Below the pieces are notes generated by a model. That model ran no database searches. It was not told the DNA's origin and saw nothing but the letters and a program-made list of their open reading frames with translations. Shown here one piece after another: positions 3,001-15,811 of a stretch of DNA of 37,193 nucleotides. Origin of the DNA: an uncultured Porphyromonadaceae bacterium (GTDB lineage: Bacteria > Bacteroidota > Bacteroidia > Bacteroidales > Muribaculaceae). The translations under genes and the position numbers were made by a program. Positions within the stretch are counted from its first letter, which is position 1. Each line of letters starts with the position of its first letter. The stretch spans positions 1-37,193 of the forward strand of contig CANRVB010000022.1 of the NCBI GenBank assembly GCA_947643165.1. The letters run 5' to 3'.

Positions 3001-3262
3001 GGCAACTCCCTGGAAGAACGCAACAATCGCTTCTCTTATAGCTGCCGGTAAGATCAACAACGCTACCGTTAAGCTGCCCGTCGGTCTCGATACATATTTC
3101 ACTGCCGCTATCAATGGCACTGAGATCACCTTCACTCCGAAGCCTAACACCGAGACTCCGATGAGCAATATCAGCGGTCAGGTACAGATCACATTCAATG
3201 ACGATGTAGCCGGCTCTTCAGCTATCACCCTGAGCCTGCCGACAATCACAATGAACAAGTAA
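32..3262 (+). CDS. Large surface lipoprotein with N-terminal coiled coil, function unknown
   Basis: A 1076-residue protein. I chose the ATG at 32 rather than the in-frame ATG at 8 because it places a normal lipoprotein signal at the N-terminus: a basic start, a hydrophobic stretch at residues 8-18, and a lipobox F-T-S-C with the lipidated Cys at 25. Lys-Asp-Tyr-Asp-Asp-Asp follows, a common Bacteroidales start after the Cys. Residues about 33-210 are rich in Ala, Gln, Glu, Lys and Leu in a heptad-like pattern and are probably a coiled coil; the rest is Asn/Thr/Val-rich and looks like beta domains. A short Ala-Thr run near residue 640 is encoded by three GCTACA hexamers (1943-1960) and looks like a linker. 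Codons are strongly biased to AAC, AAG, GAC and CTG, unlike the neighbours, which suggests high expression. I infer an abundant cell-surface protein, possibly S-layer-like. No enzyme motif was recognised. Confidence 0.85.
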   Translation: MRKTFLKVALIGALAVAMPSTFTSCKDYDDDITDVQGQTAELRKQLESVNTAIAALPTKADVSAAQAAAVAQAKTDLEAVKVQLQAAIDGKADQTTVDAINTELSSIKGQLEAIEALKGDVATALESINQSITDLKAEAVTKGQMDAALAAQKEELQQYSDGKVAALVSEVEDLQSLVNDPNSGVAALQKQIEELAEKINGETDGEGATSLEAVIRLLNGMITHIEIVGVNANDTHRGYDKVLNLYTVNVAQDLVFGQGYAADGSGQLGYDANTFTVQNKEVFKKGEVKTFNDSILVRVSPANAVVTAEQIQLVNSKGEDLSKFVDITSVEAYKGLLTNMGSRSISNNGLHVVKFALKESFNDVEGFVAATDANNGKKNQKALINFAVAIADSDKDLAEGREITSAYDLVVNATPNAPQYELEYNVVHNGNKVPVTNIRNRFRFANDNNNDNSSLMFPTFKDFETNMSEVYAKRVSQNNYTNAASNGFTAVGDFAWVENAKEEQVATYANSGAIYDDRTSLGYELLEVKPGETFTVDMSGYNIENQNGIYGFYVTLDMWRATESNGSEREAWKSIAPSISGINAVTTDNEIALSISKDAKVDAGEILGFRVYAVNFDGTLVDPDGRAFYVVVNKPVEATATATASISAPAANSYASAAVSELGAWTATTPAVNVQFFTDGFAPYGQYSTKYLNKNPQLPNEIYVVLKNGNGVTLNNGSYTRIDRGSDGSGYDVLKNIRVALPNWQYADGETYTGTLTITDASTELVLQTIKVEITKTVANNAPTDFGINTANGFPAEGDLTAVITNTAGTYNINTVFNWGKWNNANLTSSDYTEVVTFQPKNDKWNAKTTEAVNGVFNLSTVELDNRNEVQNFNNKVINNGKYPMTVAYEYTTQFSYVPQTKADGTLADKGVWSVNGQEIEYQPYVMKSTTYSMSRNISFVTIASQLTFAWKPASGSGATAVPAYAPALTYDTDGTIDLTKVMANQTITEATPWKNATIASLIAAGKINNATVKLPVGLDTYFTAAINGTEITFTPKPNTETPMSNISGQVQITFNDDVAGSSAITLSLPTITMNK

Positions 3263-3297
3263 TCGAACATCCTGATAAGACAACTAAATAAGTGAAG

Positions 3298-3330
3298 GAG
3301 AGGCTCCGCGCGAGGCGGCGCCTCTCTTTT
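3298..3330 (+). terminator. Intrinsic terminator after the surface lipoprotein gene
   Basis: GAGAGGC (3298-3304) and GCCTCTC (3320-3326) form a perfect 7-bp stem followed by TTTT. It lies 35 bases after the stop codon of the lipoprotein gene. Confidence 0.75.
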
Positions 3331-3332
3331 GT

Positions 3333-3366
3333 TTGCCCGGTGGCGATGGCTGCCGGGCAATTTTTT
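3333..3366 (+). terminator. Second tandem intrinsic terminator
   Basis: TTGCCCGG (3333-3340) and CCGGGCAA (3353-3360) form a perfect 8-bp stem followed by six T. It starts 2 bases after the first terminator, so the highly expressed gene upstream is closed twice. Confidence 0.85.
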
Positions 3367-3427
3367 GTGGTAAGGGGATATTTCGCAAATAAACCGTGGC
3401 GGTGTGTTGTAATTTTGCATCACGTAG

Positions 3428-3493
3428 AAGTTACTCACGTTCGGCAATGCTCAAAAATAAATTTTTTGCATTGCGCTCACTAATTCGTAACTT
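3428..3493. repeat. Palindromic intergenic repeat, unit 1
   Basis: A 66-bp unit bounded by AAGTTAC and GTAACTT. Inside is a second stem GCAATGC/GCATTGC, then AAAAAT-AA-ATTTTT at the tip. It differs from unit 3 at a single base (A at 3482, T at the equivalent 3634). The arms between outer and inner stems do not pair. It includes most of a consensus promoter, listed separately. Confidence 0.9.
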
Positions 3494-3495
3494 TG
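3465..3495 (+). promoter_or_regulatory. Bacteroidota-type promoter inside repeat unit 1
   Basis: TTTG (3465-3468), 19 bases, TAACTTTG (3488-3495): a full match to the known Bacteroidota consensus TTTG-N19-21-TAnnTTTG. It points toward the alkaline phosphatase gene, but units 2 and 3 lie between. Activity is inferred. Confidence 0.5.
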
Positions 3496-3504
3496 ACTGA
3501 CGTC

Positions 3505-3569
3505 CAAGTTACTCACGCTCGGCAAAACTCAAATAAATTTGGTTTTGCTCTCGCTTAATCGTAACGTTG
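3505..3569. repeat. Palindromic intergenic repeat, unit 2 (diverged)
   Basis: A diverged copy bounded by CAAGTTAC and GTAACGTTG. Its inner stem is GCAAAAC/GTTTTGC and its tip CAAAT-AA-ATTTG, so both arms have changed together relative to units 1 and 3. Its promoter is broken: the -7 element is TAACGTTG and the nearest TTTG is only 14 bases away. Confidence 0.85.
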
Positions 3570-3579
3570 GCTTACGCCG

Positions 3580-3645
3580 AAGTTACTCACGTTCGGCAAT
3601 GCTCAAAAATAAATTTTTTGCATTGCGCTCACTTATTCGTAACTT
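3580..3645. repeat. Palindromic intergenic repeat, unit 3
   Basis: A 66-bp unit identical to unit 1 except for one base. It is bounded by AAGTTAC (3580-3586) and GTAACTT (3639-3645), with the inner stem GCAATGC/GCATTGC. It ends 27 bases before the alkaline phosphatase start codon. Confidence 0.9.
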
Positions 3646-3647
3646 TG
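3617..3647 (+). promoter_or_regulatory. Probable promoter of the alkaline phosphatase gene, inside repeat unit 3
   Basis: TTTG (3617-3620), 19 bases, TAACTTTG (3640-3647), matching the Bacteroidota consensus fully. The -7 element overlaps the right outer arm of the palindrome. Transcription would start near 3651-3654, leaving a leader of about 20 nt before the ATG at 3673. Confidence 0.7.
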
Positions 3648-3672
3648 GCTCATAAACAAAAAATCTTATATC

Positions 3673-5058
3673 ATGAATTTGCGAAAGTTAGTATCTGTAT
3701 TTGCGATCGGGGCGGCGATGACGGTATCGGCGTCACCTCGGTATATTTTTTATTTCATAGGCGACGGCATGGGTATGGGCCAGGTGATGTCGGCCCAGAC
3801 GTACAACAGGCTTGCGCTGAAGCAGACGGCGCCGTTGCTGATGATGCAGTTTCCGTATGCGGGAATGCTTGAGACTTATTCGGCGTCGAGTACGGTGACG
3901 GATTCGGCTGCGGCTGGTACGGCGCTTGCTACGGGCCGGAAGACCAATAACGGTATGCTGGGTGTGACGCCGGACTCGGTGTCGGTGACTTCGATTGCGG
4001 AGACGCTGTTTGGCAATGGCTGGGGTGTGGGTCTGGTGACTTCGGTGGCTCCTGATGATGCTACTCCGGGTGCTTTTTACGCGCATGTGCCGGCACGCAG
4101 CATGACGTATGAGATAGGGCGTCAGGCTGCCGAGAGCGGGTATCAGTTTATCGCGGGGTCGACGTGGCGCGGGTTCAAGGGCCGCGACGGCAAGGAGACT
4201 GATCTGAGGGATTATATGGAGTCGAAGGGCGTGGATCTGGTGACTTCGACAGACGAGGCTCGGAGCAGCAAGAGCGACAGGGTGTTTCTGTATAGTGCGG
4301 AGCCGTTCAACAGCGGTAATGTGGGTTACACGATCGACTCGATAGCCGGCGCTCTGAGGTTGCCCGATATGACAGCTGCGGCGATAGAGCATATGGAGCG
4401 GGTATCGCCGGATAGGTTTTTCATGATGGTCGAGGGCGGCAATATAGATCATGTGGGCCACGGCAATGACGGCGGCACAGTGGCGGTTGAGGTTGTGAAC
4501 TTCAATGAGGCTCTGGCGGAGGCATACAAGTTTTATGAGCGGCATCCGGATGAGACTGTGATAATCGTGACGGCCGATCATGAGACGGGCGGCATGAGTC
4601 TTGGAAACGGTAATGTGGGGTATACTTCGTATATGGAGTATGTTCCGGCGCAGCGTATGAGCAAGGATATGTTCTCCAACCGTATGAAGGAGATGCTTGC
4701 GGGCGGAAATGTGCCGACATGGGATGAAGTGAAGGAGTTTGCACGGGCCAATACGGGGCTGTGGGGCGTAGTGCCGGTGAAGGAGCGTCAGGAGAAGATG
4801 CTGAAGGATCTGTATGAGAAGTCGGTGTCGCATGACGGCAGCAATGGTGACGAGAAGTCGCTCTATGCGTCGTATGACGCTCTGGCGGCTGCGATATACC
4901 GTGTGCTCAATGACAATCAGGGCTTCGGCTGGACCTCGGGCAGCCATACGGGCAATCCTGTGCCTGTGTATGCGATAGGCGACGGTATGGAGGTGTTCGG
5001 CACGTTGCTGGACAATACGGAGATAGCGCCGATGCTGCTGAAAATAGCCGGGAAGTGA
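3673..5058 (+). CDS. Alkaline phosphatase (PhoA family, PF00245)
   Basis: A 461-residue phosphomonoesterase expected in the periplasm, where it releases inorganic phosphate from organic esters. A signal peptide covers about residues 1-21, probably cleaved after Ala-Ser-Ala. Family motifs are intact: G-D-G-M-G-M-G with metal ligand Asp31, the T-D-S-A-A-A-G-T-A nucleophile motif with Ser78 followed by A-T-G-R-K-T, the metal-binding E-G-G-N-I-D-H-V-G-H-G, and T-A-D-H-E-T-G-G. A C-terminal S-G-S-H-T-G-N-P-V-P motif supplies another His ligand. The length is normal. The gene is monocistronic and convergent with a phosphate-selective-type porin, which supports a role in phosphate gain. Its promoter lies in a palindromic repeat; I saw no clear Pho box. 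Codons are rich in GCG, ACG and TCG, unlike the lipoprotein gene before it. Confidence 0.95.
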   Translation: MNLRKLVSVFAIGAAMTVSASPRYIFYFIGDGMGMGQVMSAQTYNRLALKQTAPLLMMQFPYAGMLETYSASSTVTDSAAAGTALATGRKTNNGMLGVTPDSVSVTSIAETLFGNGWGVGLVTSVAPDDATPGAFYAHVPARSMTYEIGRQAAESGYQFIAGSTWRGFKGRDGKETDLRDYMESKGVDLVTSTDEARSSKSDRVFLYSAEPFNSGNVGYTIDSIAGALRLPDMTAAAIEHMERVSPDRFFMMVEGGNIDHVGHGNDGGTVAVEVVNFNEALAEAYKFYERHPDETVIIVTADHETGGMSLGNGNVGYTSYMEYVPAQRMSKDMFSNRMKEMLAGGNVPTWDEVKEFARANTGLWGVVPVKERQEKMLKDLYEKSVSHDGSNGDEKSLYASYDALAAAIYRVLNDNQGFGWTSGSHTGNPVPVYAIGDGMEVFGTLLDNTEIAPMLLKIAGK

Positions 5059-13402: not shown

Positions 13403-15631
13403 CTACTTTTTGGGTGACAATATCCGTTCGCCCAAAAATCTGGCAAGTTCCATCTTGATAGCGTTGAGTTCCTGCATCTGGCGCATCACGTCGATGATGG
13501 CGTCAGAGTCGTTCTGTTGTTGTGCGTCGAGGAGAGCCTTGCGTTGGCGGTGCAGTCGTAATTCTACTGTGGCATACTTGAGGTCGGCGATGGCGCGTGG
13601 CACAAGTACTGGCAATCGTTCGCGTTCGGTCTCGACGTGCGAGAACTTGGTGTGTATCTTGCTGAGCTGATGCTTCTCGCTTACAAGTTCTGTTGTGACA
13701 CGTCGTATATTGTCGTCAGGATCGCTTATGAGAATGCGTTCGATATAGTTGCAGGCATATTCGTCAATGGCGCGAGCACTGTCGGTGGCAATCTGTTGAT
13801 GCAGCGCATCCTCGGCCCGCTTTATTGATGACATATCTATGGCCGACCGGGTGATCTGTTCAATTCCAAGTCTGAACGCTTCCGCATCATCGGCCTGCTG
13901 ACGGGCCATTCTGCCATCGCGGTCTTCATCCCAACGGGTGCGCAGCAGGTTCAAAGCCGCGTCATATGCCGAGGCAAGAGCTAAATTGGTTATCCTGATG
14001 TCGTCTTCGGCCAGCATTGCGTCGATATAATCGAGAACAGTCACCGGAATGGTATTTCCATCTGACGTTTCTGTGTCGGCCAAAGTTGCAGCTCCATATT
14101 TGAGCGCGTACCTCATCAGTTCGTGCTCGGCTTGAAGTAGAAAATGCCGGTTCTCGCGTTCCTCTTCGGAGAGAGGGCGTGTTTTCAGGGGTGGGGCCGG
14201 TTGCTGTGTGGTTGGCGCAGGAGTTACTGCTTGACCGGATAAGTTGTCCGCGGCTGGTGCCGGTGAGGCAATGGATTGTGCCGCACGTGCACGGCCGGCA
14301 TCTTCTGCCGCCCTATGTGCGCGTTCAGCCCGCTCTTTGGCTACCTGAAGTGTCAATACGCTCTCCTCAATCGCCATCATGCGGCTGCACTCGCCTATGT
14401 AGACAGTACGCGTTATCTCGTCAGGTATGAGGGCTATTGTCCGTACTATCTCGCTTATGACTTTGGATCGACGCAGGGGATCGTCACCGGCATCTTTCAG
14501 GAGAATGTCGGTCATGAACCGAATGAAATCAGTCTCGTGTTCCTTGAAGTAAGCCGCTACTTCCGATGAACTGTGATGCTGAGAGAAGCTGTCGGGATCT
14601 TCGCCTTCAGGTAGCAGAAGCACCTTTATGTTCAGGCCTTCCGATAACAGCATTCCTATGCCACGCAGCGAAGCTTTAATGCCCGCGGCGTCCGAATCAT
14701 AGACCAGTGTCACATTTTCGGTGAAACGGTGTATGAGCCGGATCTGGCCTTCGGTGAGTGCTGTGCCCGATGATGCCACTACATTCTCTATGCCGCTCTG
14801 ATGAAGGGAGATCACATCCATATAGCCTTCAACAAGATAGCATCTGTCGGCAGCAGCTATAGCACGCTTGGCCTGAAAAAGTCCGTAGAGTTCACGGCTC
14901 TTGCTGTATATCACACTTTCCGGAGAGTTGACATACTTGGCTATCTCCTTGTCCTTGCGCAATGTGCGGCCTCCGAATGCTACTATCTTTCCGGAGACAG
15001 AGAATATAGGATAGATTACTCGGCCTCTGAAACGGTCGCGGAGTTCACCGTGCTCGCGTGTATAGCATAATCCTGCCTTGACGAGATAGTCAGGCGAATA
15101 GCCTTTGGCAACCGCTTCCTTTGCCAGGGCGTCTCTTGATTCCGGTGAATATCCGAGTTTGAAGCGCTCGATCATGGTATCGCTGATGCCACGTTCGCGG
15201 AAATATGCAAGTCCGATATTGCGTCCGTCGGGAGTGGAGTTGAGCGAATTACGGAAGAACTCAAGCGCAAATTCATTAACAGCGAGCATGCTCTCGCGCT
15301 CACCTTCCGCTTTGCGCTCTTCTTCGGTCATTTCCCGTTCCTTAACTTCGATACCATACTTTTTGGCCAGATACATGAGTGCCTCATAGTATGACATCTG
15401 CTCATGAAGCATGATGAAGTTTACAGGACTTCCACCCTGGCCGCAGCTGAAGCATTTGCAGATATTTTTTGATTTGCTGACCGAAAACGATGGCGTGCGC
15501 TCATTGTGGAACGGGCACAATCCTATATAGCCTGAACCACGGCGTTTCAGGCTTACGAAATCGCTCACGACATCTACAATATCGGCTGTGTCGAGAATGC
15601 GCTGTACAGTTGGCTGGTCAATGCGTCTCAT
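13403..15631 (-). CDS. dnaG: DNA primase
   Basis: A 742-residue primase that makes RNA primers at the replication fork with the replicative helicase. The ATG at 15631 (M-R-R-I-D-Q-P-T-V) is preferred; an in-frame TTG lies 12 bases further up. The N-terminal CHC2 zinc-binding motif is intact: C39-P-F-H42, then C60-F-S-C63. The catalytic core includes F-R-G-R-V-I-Y-P-I and G-G-R-T-L, and the TOPRIM part has V-E-G-Y-M-D (Glu plus the metal-binding Asp) with Y-D-S-D-A-A-G. An Ala/Pro-rich linker near residue 450-480 joins the core to a C-terminal helicase-binding region. The length is larger than E. coli DnaG (581) but usual in Bacteroidota. It is not next to rpoD or rpsU here. It has its own promoter and terminator. 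Confidence 0.97.
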   Translation of the reverse strand: MRRIDQPTVQRILDTADIVDVVSDFVSLKRRGSGYIGLCPFHNERTPSFSVSKSKNICKCFSCGQGGSPVNFIMLHEQMSYYEALMYLAKKYGIEVKEREMTEEERKAEGERESMLAVNEFALEFFRNSLNSTPDGRNIGLAYFRERGISDTMIERFKLGYSPESRDALAKEAVAKGYSPDYLVKAGLCYTREHGELRDRFRGRVIYPIFSVSGKIVAFGGRTLRKDKEIAKYVNSPESVIYSKSRELYGLFQAKRAIAAADRCYLVEGYMDVISLHQSGIENVVASSGTALTEGQIRLIHRFTENVTLVYDSDAAGIKASLRGIGMLLSEGLNIKVLLLPEGEDPDSFSQHHSSSEVAAYFKEHETDFIRFMTDILLKDAGDDPLRRSKVISEIVRTIALIPDEITRTVYIGECSRMMAIEESVLTLQVAKERAERAHRAAEDAGRARAAQSIASPAPAADNLSGQAVTPAPTTQQPAPPLKTRPLSEEERENRHFLLQAEHELMRYALKYGAATLADTETSDGNTIPVTVLDYIDAMLAEDDIRITNLALASAYDAALNLLRTRWDEDRDGRMARQQADDAEAFRLGIEQITRSAIDMSSIKRAEDALHQQIATDSARAIDEYACNYIERILISDPDDNIRRVTTELVSEKHQLSKIHTKFSHVETERERLPVLVPRAIADLKYATVELRLHRQRKALLDAQQQNDSDAIIDVMRQMQELNAIKMELARFLGERILSPKK

Positions 15632-15640
15632 CTGTGTGTG

Positions 15641-15672
15641 CAAAGTTACGATAAGTAGAGAGTAGTGCCAAA
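15641..15672 (-). promoter_or_regulatory. Promoter of dnaG, almost touching the start codon
   Basis: On the minus strand TTTG (15672-15669), 20 bases, TAACTTTG (15648-15641). Only 9 bases separate the -7 element from the ATG at 15631, so the mRNA would have almost no leader. Confidence 0.7.
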
Positions 15673-15811
15673 TTTATTTGTGCGTTACCGAGTGGGAGTC
15701 ACATAGAGCCAGAGGTGGAAATTATCCGATATTCATAATAATATCTTGTTAAAAATTGACAAGTAATATTGTTTGACAAGAATCAATAGTGAGTGTAGCA
15801 CACAAATTCCT

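Follow-up and report, generated by a model that had tools for sequence, protein, structure and literature searches.

Palindromic interspersed repeats in Muribaculaceae and other Bacteroidales that probably act as one-directional promoters

The Correia element (CREE) of Neisseria is an interspersed repeat with inverted ends that is found in over 100 copies, many of them 5' of genes, and its shortest type is 69-73 bp (PMC2649163). Its gene-side promoters are made up of the repeat plus the insertion site; in the Black promoter, the element contributes the -35 and part of the -10. Strain FA1090 has 18 potential Black promoters and 15 potential Snyder promoters (PMC2649163). The BrickBuilt MITE of Porphyromonas gingivalis consists of 23-nt repeats with a leader and a tail, and it showed lacZ promoter activity in both directions in E. 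coli (PMC4596501). REP sequences are tagged elements of 20-50 nt that are linked to TnpA-REP (PMC8266576), and CGTC repeats are known from Bacteroidetes too (PMC3733652). The invertible promoters of Bacteroidales use TTTG and TANNTTTGY boxes and lie between inverted repeats (PMC8748976). Promoters of the sigma-ABfr type have TTTG around -33 and TAnnTTTG at -7 (PMC7366714).

Here we describe a palindromic repeat, which we will call the unit, that forms a tandem array just 5' of an alkaline phosphatase gene in an uncultured member of the Muribaculaceae. The array lies in a window of 37,193 nt, which is the whole stretch of DNA that we analyzed. The Correia element is the nearest functional likeness of the unit: both are interspersed, both have inverted ends, and both appear to provide a gene-side promoter. 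But the phylum and the sigma factor are different, the likeness is one of description, and we do not claim kinship. Also, in contrast to the counts for FA1090, the gene-proximal box of the unit is intact in 153 of 159 arrays (see below), and tandem arrays with broken inner boxes are not mentioned for CREE in the available part of PMC2649163. Within the order, BrickBuilt is the nearest likeness, as it is also intergenic and tandemly repeated, although the unit is a hairpin of about 64-78 nt that points in one direction. This comparison is again by description rather than sequence and implies no kinship. The unit shares TTTG and TAnnTTTG boxes and inverted repeats with the invertible promoters, but its promoter would be in the repeat itself instead of between the repeats.

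The array in the window

The three units of the array are direct copies (Table 1). With a 20-nt probe, allowing at most 3 mismatches, just these three units were found in the window and nothing in 100 shuffles. A repeat finder reported no inverted pair of at least 12 nt within 3200-3800, and a scan of the whole window reported none of at least 14 nt at the array; this is because the stem of the palindrome is interrupted. Folding as single-stranded DNA gave z-scores of -2.97 for unit 1, -3.75 for unit 2, and -2.12 for unit 3. The full hairpin is the centroid of unit 3 but not its minimum-energy fold.

Table 1. Features of the window around the array and around the fourth unit.
Feature	Position	Strand	Remark
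Upstream element GGATATTTCGCAAA of the ordinary promoter that precedes the array	3376..3389	+	19 exact places in the genome
-7 box TAATTTTG of this ordinary promoter, N20 past GGATATTTCGCAAA	3410..3417	+	Array begins directly 3' of the box
10-nt spacer, 5' of unit 1	3418..3427	+	
Unit 1: hairpin, TTTG at 3465-3468, N19, box TAACTTTG at 3488-3495	3428..3495	+	
Spacer ACTGACGTCC between units 1 and 2, palindromic if the preceding base is included	3496..3505	+	
Unit 2: hairpin, broken box TAACGTTG at 3562-3569	3506..3569	+	
Spacer GCTTACGCCG between units 2 and 3, palindromic if the preceding base is included	3570..3579	+	
Unit 3, gene-proximal: TTTG at 3617-3620, N19, box TAACTTTG at 3640-3647; predicted phosphatase promoter	3580..3647	+	
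25-nt stretch from box to ATG	3648..3672	+	
Alkaline phosphatase gene, PF00245, ATG at 3673	3673..5058	+	
Fourth copy of the unit, 49.8 bits, box TAACTTTG at 15641-15648, degenerate left arm	15641..15704	-	Model match
dnaG (DNA primase), ATG 9 nt past the fourth unit	13403..15631	-	

An earlier reading of this DNA, made from the sequence only, had proposed that units 1 and 3 each hold an exact TTTG-N19-TAACTTTG promoter, with the right arm as the -7 box and the T run at the hairpin tip as the -33 element, and that the last copy sits directly 5' of the phosphatase ATG. Counting positions bears out the spacing, both units have the proposed arm and tip, and the last box is followed after 25 nt by the ATG of the PF00245 gene. 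The proposed size of 66 bp needs a small correction, as units 1 and 3 are 68 nt by the coordinates of our model. The left arm was said to give TAACTTCG on the other strand; this holds for unit 3 but not for unit 1, which has TAACTTCT. The broken box of unit 2, the ordinary promoter at 3376-3417, and the fourth copy next to dnaG had been passed over in that reading. Unit 3 is likely the promoter of the alkaline phosphatase gene.

When the upstream element GGATATTTCGCAAA was read backward, as a control, it had 0 exact places in the genome. TAnnTTTG follows all 19 of its sites, at N20 in 17 of them and at N19 and N21 in one each. A unit array lies directly behind six of these 19 promoters; at L031 and L041, which are two of these six, part of the first unit is deleted. 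A seventh candidate site, L038, was rejected: what follows GGATATTTCGCAAA there is a chance AAATTACC and not a unit. GGATATTTCGCAAA seems to mark either a promoter class of its own or a site for a factor that overlaps the -33.

The upstream flanks of the phoA array (around 3350-3430 of the window) and of the argS array (around 3978-4060 of contig G000:C15) are alike, with GCCGGGCAATTTTTT, the promoter, and the spacer in each (L016 and L041). This is what the duplication of a larger cassette would look like.

Architecture and dispersal of the unit

The outer stem of the unit is about 7 bp and is formed by the arms AAGTTAC and GTAACTT. Between the arms are two conserved internal-loop strands, typically TCACGCTCGG and CTC(G)RCTTAWTCG, and an inner hairpin that is frequently centred on AAATAAATTT. 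The order along the unit is the left arm, TCACGCTCGG, the inner hairpin, CTC(G)RCTTAWTCG, and the box, which together span about 64-78 nt (64 positions in the model). Because, in the family of the window, the right arm is a -7 box and the tip provides a -33 TTTG at N19-21, each intact unit would be a complete one-directional promoter of the sigma-ABfr type. Tandem copies are joined by 9-16 nt at 77 of 86 joints, and many of the joints are palindromic (GGCTGACGCC, GACTGACGTC, GGGCTTTTGCCC).

Across 149 copies from five genomes, 93.0% of the cells in the alignment pair, and 17 of the 18 pairs are changed on both sides. The covariation score of these copies is 0.372, versus 0.109 if shuffled and at most 0.055 if slid, in an alignment that was fitted to the model and is biased towards the structure. 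Both stems covary. At its free bases, the box can have AC, AT, TC, TA, TT, or CC, and the left arm changes in step with them. The hairpins from other families also covary (0.532 versus 0.182 shuffled, 47 copies), and their arms often hold no promoter: the TAnnTTTG end is present in 0 of 12 copies from G531 and G616 and in 12 of 12 copies from G509. The hairpin seems to be the wider phenomenon, with the box-bearing arm as one version of it. At L419-L428, L443, and L444, which are boxless copies from two genomes of other Bacteroidales families, the next open frame is on the opposite strand for 10 of the 12 copies.

There are also subtypes of the unit. At L182, L186, L190, L191, and part of L324-L340, the strands TCACG and TTATTCG are replaced by AAATTAGGC...GCACTAATTTTG; the inner hairpin and the box are kept, and the closing pair changes from C-G to G-C. 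A long-core subtype has an A/T-rich insert in the hairpin (L169-L171, L175, L177, L179, L185, L188, L189, L192, and L193). In several loci, long-core and short-core units share one array.

To find more copies, we searched the 2.64 Mb genome with the DNA of unit 1, which gave 32 places at E<=10. We also built a covariance model from 12 copies in this genome (G000), and among the 150 of 1583 candidates that were scored, it gave 35 matches at E<=0.1, including the one next to dnaG. The sequence-only reading would have been undermined by a lack of other copies, and these matches speak against that. In the genus, 5 of 34 genomes have matches at E<=0.01: G000 (33 places), G033 (13), G029 (4), G002 (1), and G008 (1). 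Related genomes of the family also match: with at most 13 candidates scored per genome, 147 of 397 genomes have the unit, and these represent 22 of 30 genera. Across the order, again with at most 13 candidates scored per genome, matches were found in 42 of 393 genomes, three of which are from the window's own family, and in 29 of 207 genera. This limit caps the copy numbers in both searches. Five more genomes that were searched more fully had 17, 71, 33, 49, and 43 places, so the copy number reaches about 70 per genome in some Bacteroidales. Since the model scores the box and was built from 12 copies of G000, copies without TAnnTTTG are under-found. The units that the model missed include a further unit in L317 and an interrupted unit 5' of pyrG in G358. 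In all of these counts and those below, copies and arrays share ancestry and are not independent.

A contig labelled Pseudomonadota (L123) contains the left part of a unit only, which is either a chance match or from a mislabelled contig.

Box integrity, orientation, and turnover

We analyzed the boxes of 254 model matches in loci that were fetched from seven genomes (G000, G033, G087, G123, G136, G244, and G372). Nine of the 254 rows looked coding or non-promoter and were left out (six of L180, the + row of L181, L213, and L161). Leaving out L161 favours the promoter reading, because it matches the model strongly (57.7 bits) and its box is broken. In the remaining rows, TAnnTTTG is intact in the gene-proximal copy of 153 of 159 arrays and in 31 of 86 inner copies; if no row is left out, the corresponding numbers are 153/168 and 31/86. 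As a control, we considered the -33 TTTG at N18-22, which is present in 151/168 last copies and 74/86 inner copies, so it does not differ between them. With the same nine rows left out, TTTG is found at N19-21 in 147 of the 159 gene-proximal copies. In box and spacing, these copies are like sigma-ABfr promoters, but unlike an ordinary promoter of this type, the unit is a repeat.

Most arrays (92 of 159) consist of one detected unit. Among the 67 multi-copy arrays, 43 have an intact last box and at least one broken inner box, one has the reverse, and 23 have neither. The inner boxes are all broken in 40 of these arrays, all intact in 23, and mixed in 4. The commonest change in inner boxes is from TTTG to GTTG (34 cases in which TA is kept). 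The contrast between last and inner boxes is strong in three genomes of one genus, with inner boxes intact in 2/21 copies of G123, 2/18 of G136, and 1/15 of G372. It is weaker in the window's own genome, G000 (10/15, and unit 1 of the window is also intact), and it is not seen in G033 (3/3), G087 (6/7), or G244 (7/7).

The units have a clear orientation. Of 159 arrays, 141 have an ATG that opens a reading frame no more than 100 nt downstream, at a median distance of 26 nt, and 35 have one in the mirrored upstream position. (Gene starts were defined as an ATG followed by at least 80 open codons, or 30 at the end of a locus, without a gene caller.) TAnnTTTG is present on the other strand in just 5 of 245 copies, and we dismissed a bidirectional promoter for this reason. 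The proposal that near-promoters point both ways, which had been based on the arms in the window, is not supported for the family. The broader proposal, of small elements from which genes receive promoters, is supported by the position, orientation, and spacing of the units and by the integrity of last versus inner boxes.

In G000, 18 of 20 arrays have a gene within 260 nt downstream. We scanned 16 of these 18 genes and found mixed functions: phoA, dxr, rlmN, purB, argS, a CHU_C protein, a chromate transporter, GH2, ybeY, an M64 peptidase, ruvX, an L-PSP protein, a protein with a response-regulator domain, dnaG, GH20, and an RNA methyltransferase. The five genes that we scanned in G136 encode CTP synthase, an FtsY-type SRP GTPase, D-Ala-D-Ala ligase, an RNA methyltransferase, and a chromate transporter. 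Ordinary and essential genes are among them, namely dnaG, dxr, purB, argS, and those for CTP synthase, the SRP GTPase, and the ligase. Units are found at the chromate transporter in both genomes (L005 in G000 and L306 in G136), as well as at the RNA methyltransferase (L027 in G000, where the unit is degenerate, and L312 in G136). As the two genomes are from different genera, some of these places may be shared, or they may have been hit more than once.

To see how arrays change, we compared 17 orthologous array sites between G136 and G372, which belong to one genus. At 15 of the 17 sites, the 200 nt downstream are 0.81-1.00 identical; of the other two sites, one is at the end of a contig (0.21), and one has an extra unit in between (0.53). 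The number of detected units differs at 10 of the 17 sites, a count that includes L273, which is cut by a contig end, and that is affected by degenerate units, which can be missed. At 16 of the 17 sites, both genomes have TAnnTTTG as the last box. The exception is L317, where the unit that the model missed lies downstream and has an intact box. In three pairs that we read (L307/L327, L308/L329, and L320/L334), the extra unit is gene-proximal. These differences in copy number need not mean gain: direct repeats could have recombined, so that units were lost instead. Several pairs have conserved flanks but strongly different hairpin cores, and in L275/L280 both copies changed together.

We also examined orthologous loci that lack units. 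For rlmN, we fetched the loci of 29 of the 33 other genomes of the genus with a match, and none of the 29 contains a unit. TAnnTTTG is present 7-32 nt before the ATG in 12 of the 29, as compared to a background of 2.3%; in the other 17, no box was found within 70 nt. For phoA, the unit is found in 0 of 24 ortholog loci in the genus (24 of 28, with four cut loci left out), and most of the phoA orthologs that we displayed have no box. (The model was also run on 27 further ortholog loci.) At pyrG, there are two units in G136, one in G372, and, reading by eye, an interrupted unit in G358. Of the 10 orthologs besides the one in G136, 7 have a plain box without a unit, and 1 is cut by the end of its contig. 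Similarly, a plain TACCTTTG precedes ftsY in 4 of the 6 foreign orthologs that we displayed. Units lie where relatives frequently have an ordinary -7 box, which suggests that the gene-proximal box stands in for the native box.

Some arrays also have a box in front. An octamer that resembles the box (with TTTG or GTTG) lies 7-18 nt 5' of the first unit in 39 of 153 arrays, versus a background of 1.6%, and its free bases are those of the unit itself in 31 of the 39. Some of these octamers may be what is left of older units.

The pyrG locus of G358 (L344) also has two tandem units at 885-1020 on the minus strand, TAACGTTG then TAACTTTG, that face away from pyrG. These model matches are about 480-615 nt upstream of pyrG, on the other strand.

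Interpretation and alternatives

We propose that the units are palindromic interspersed elements that are located at -7 boxes and act as one-directional promoters. We put the probability of this at roughly 0.7. RNA polymerase would start a few nucleotides past the gene-proximal box. The inner boxes, which in several genomes are mostly changed from TTTG to GTTG, would be inactive, and the box beside the ATG would be the working one.

The strong covariation of both stems might instead reflect RNA structure, with the hairpins acting in 5' leaders as attenuators, stabilisers, or riboregulators. Transcription that begins farther upstream, for example at the promoter at 3376-3417, would indeed traverse the array. 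But 92 of the 159 arrays have a single detected unit, and the part that is kept beside the gene is the box. The gene-proximal hairpin is upstream of its own box, so it would be absent from its own transcript. Nor is a T run found after the stem, so the unit is unlike an intrinsic terminator. In 10 unit loci, Rfam had no match over the units at the gathering score; its one hit was to the FopS sRNA in L096, over 1 kb from the unit. Allowing E<=10 within 3250-3750 gave five weak matches that are far below gathering: four are over the flank at 3278-3366, and the fifth is snR87, on the minus strand over unit 3 (16.1 bits and E 6.1, with a gathering score of 37). We consider a transcribed RNA element to be improbable. 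A regulator could also explain a palindrome: the unit might be the operator of a dimeric protein, with the downstream genes as its regulon, and the internal-loop strands, which recur in other families of the order, could be bound by protein. However, the sequences of the stems change in step so that pairing is kept, and a sequence-specific dimer needs no such thing. The downstream genes are also functionally mixed, and the 29 rlmN and 24 phoA ortholog loci lack model matches, so we think an operator is slightly less probable again than an RNA element. Being palindromic, intergenic, present in tens of copies, and clustered in tandem, the units resemble REP elements and BIMEs, which raises the question of whether they are moved by a Y1 (RAYT or TnpA-REP) transposase. 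This is very unlikely. The Y1 family, PF01797, has no match in four of 10 unit-bearing genomes (G000, which is 88.5% complete, G033, G244, and G203), and it is present in 7 of 10 other genomes, of which nine have no unit match and one (G002) has a single weak match. Given no association between PF01797 and the units across these 20 genomes, we disfavour it as the mobilising enzyme. Also, the units are not tagged as REP or other GTAG or CGTC palindromes are: of 244 copies, 3 have GTAG within 8 nt before the left arm, and 18 have CGTC near it. At 64 model positions and with an internal loop, the unit differs from the 20-50 nt given for REP (PMC8266576). We give the least credence to an invertible promoter. 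Although the unit shares the boxes of these promoters and its arms are inverted repeats, the box is part of the arm and extends beyond it; inversion would therefore leave the box in place instead of taking it away. TAnnTTTG is on the other strand in only the 5 of 245 copies mentioned above, and the arrays are direct tandem copies.

Template switching, which corrects quasipalindromes, and conversion between copies are both sources of symmetry. Pairing in the units might be kept by such mutational biases and not by selection on structure. This would fit the orthologous sites whose hairpin cores are strongly different within conserved flanks, as well as the concerted change of both copies at L275/L280. 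It is possible but doubtful as an alternative to promoter-bearing elements, as it accounts for the symmetry but not for the orientation, the position before the ATG, or the integrity of last versus inner boxes.

If the units do act as promoters, then an interspersed repeat can supply the predicted promoters of ordinary and essential genes such as dnaG, dxr, purB, and argS and, in a relative, those of CTP synthase, the FtsY-type SRP GTPase, and D-Ala-D-Ala ligase. Promoter turnover may run through the gain and swap of units at a fixed place. In the one genus where the last box is intact and the inner boxes are mostly dead, selection on promoters would be readable from sequence alone. The boxless hairpin that is found across the order provides a comparison for how repeats come to carry promoters. 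We searched the open-access literature, which leaves most subscription papers outside its scope, and found no description of the unit; a search of open-access text with six strings of 11-13 nt from the unit gave, among the matches listed, papers that are unrelated by title.

How the units spread is more speculative. They have features of MITEs: they are non-coding and short, with many copies and inverted arms. The octamers in front of 39 of 153 first units might be target site duplications, or they might belong to older units. A tentative idea is that the unit is a non-autonomous mobile element that targets the -7 box. A new unit would split or duplicate the gene-proximal box and rebuild the promoter with its own -33 and arm, and the older unit behind it would keep a dead GTTG box at the junction. 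The promoters of essential genes would be replaced repeatedly, as by a ratchet, and the gene would never be without a box. The covariation of arm and box would then be a trace of the insertion chemistry. Insertion at -7 boxes would explain why extra units are gene-proximal, why relatives have a plain box, why a box can lead the array, and why the junction boxes are dead. Recombination loss and conversion between copies also explain part of this evidence.

A search of phage and plasmid records with 3380-3680 of the window gave no match. In IMG/VR, five contigs (L449-L453) contain the unit. All of their boxes are intact, and an ATG lies downstream, within the stretch that we displayed, in four of the five.
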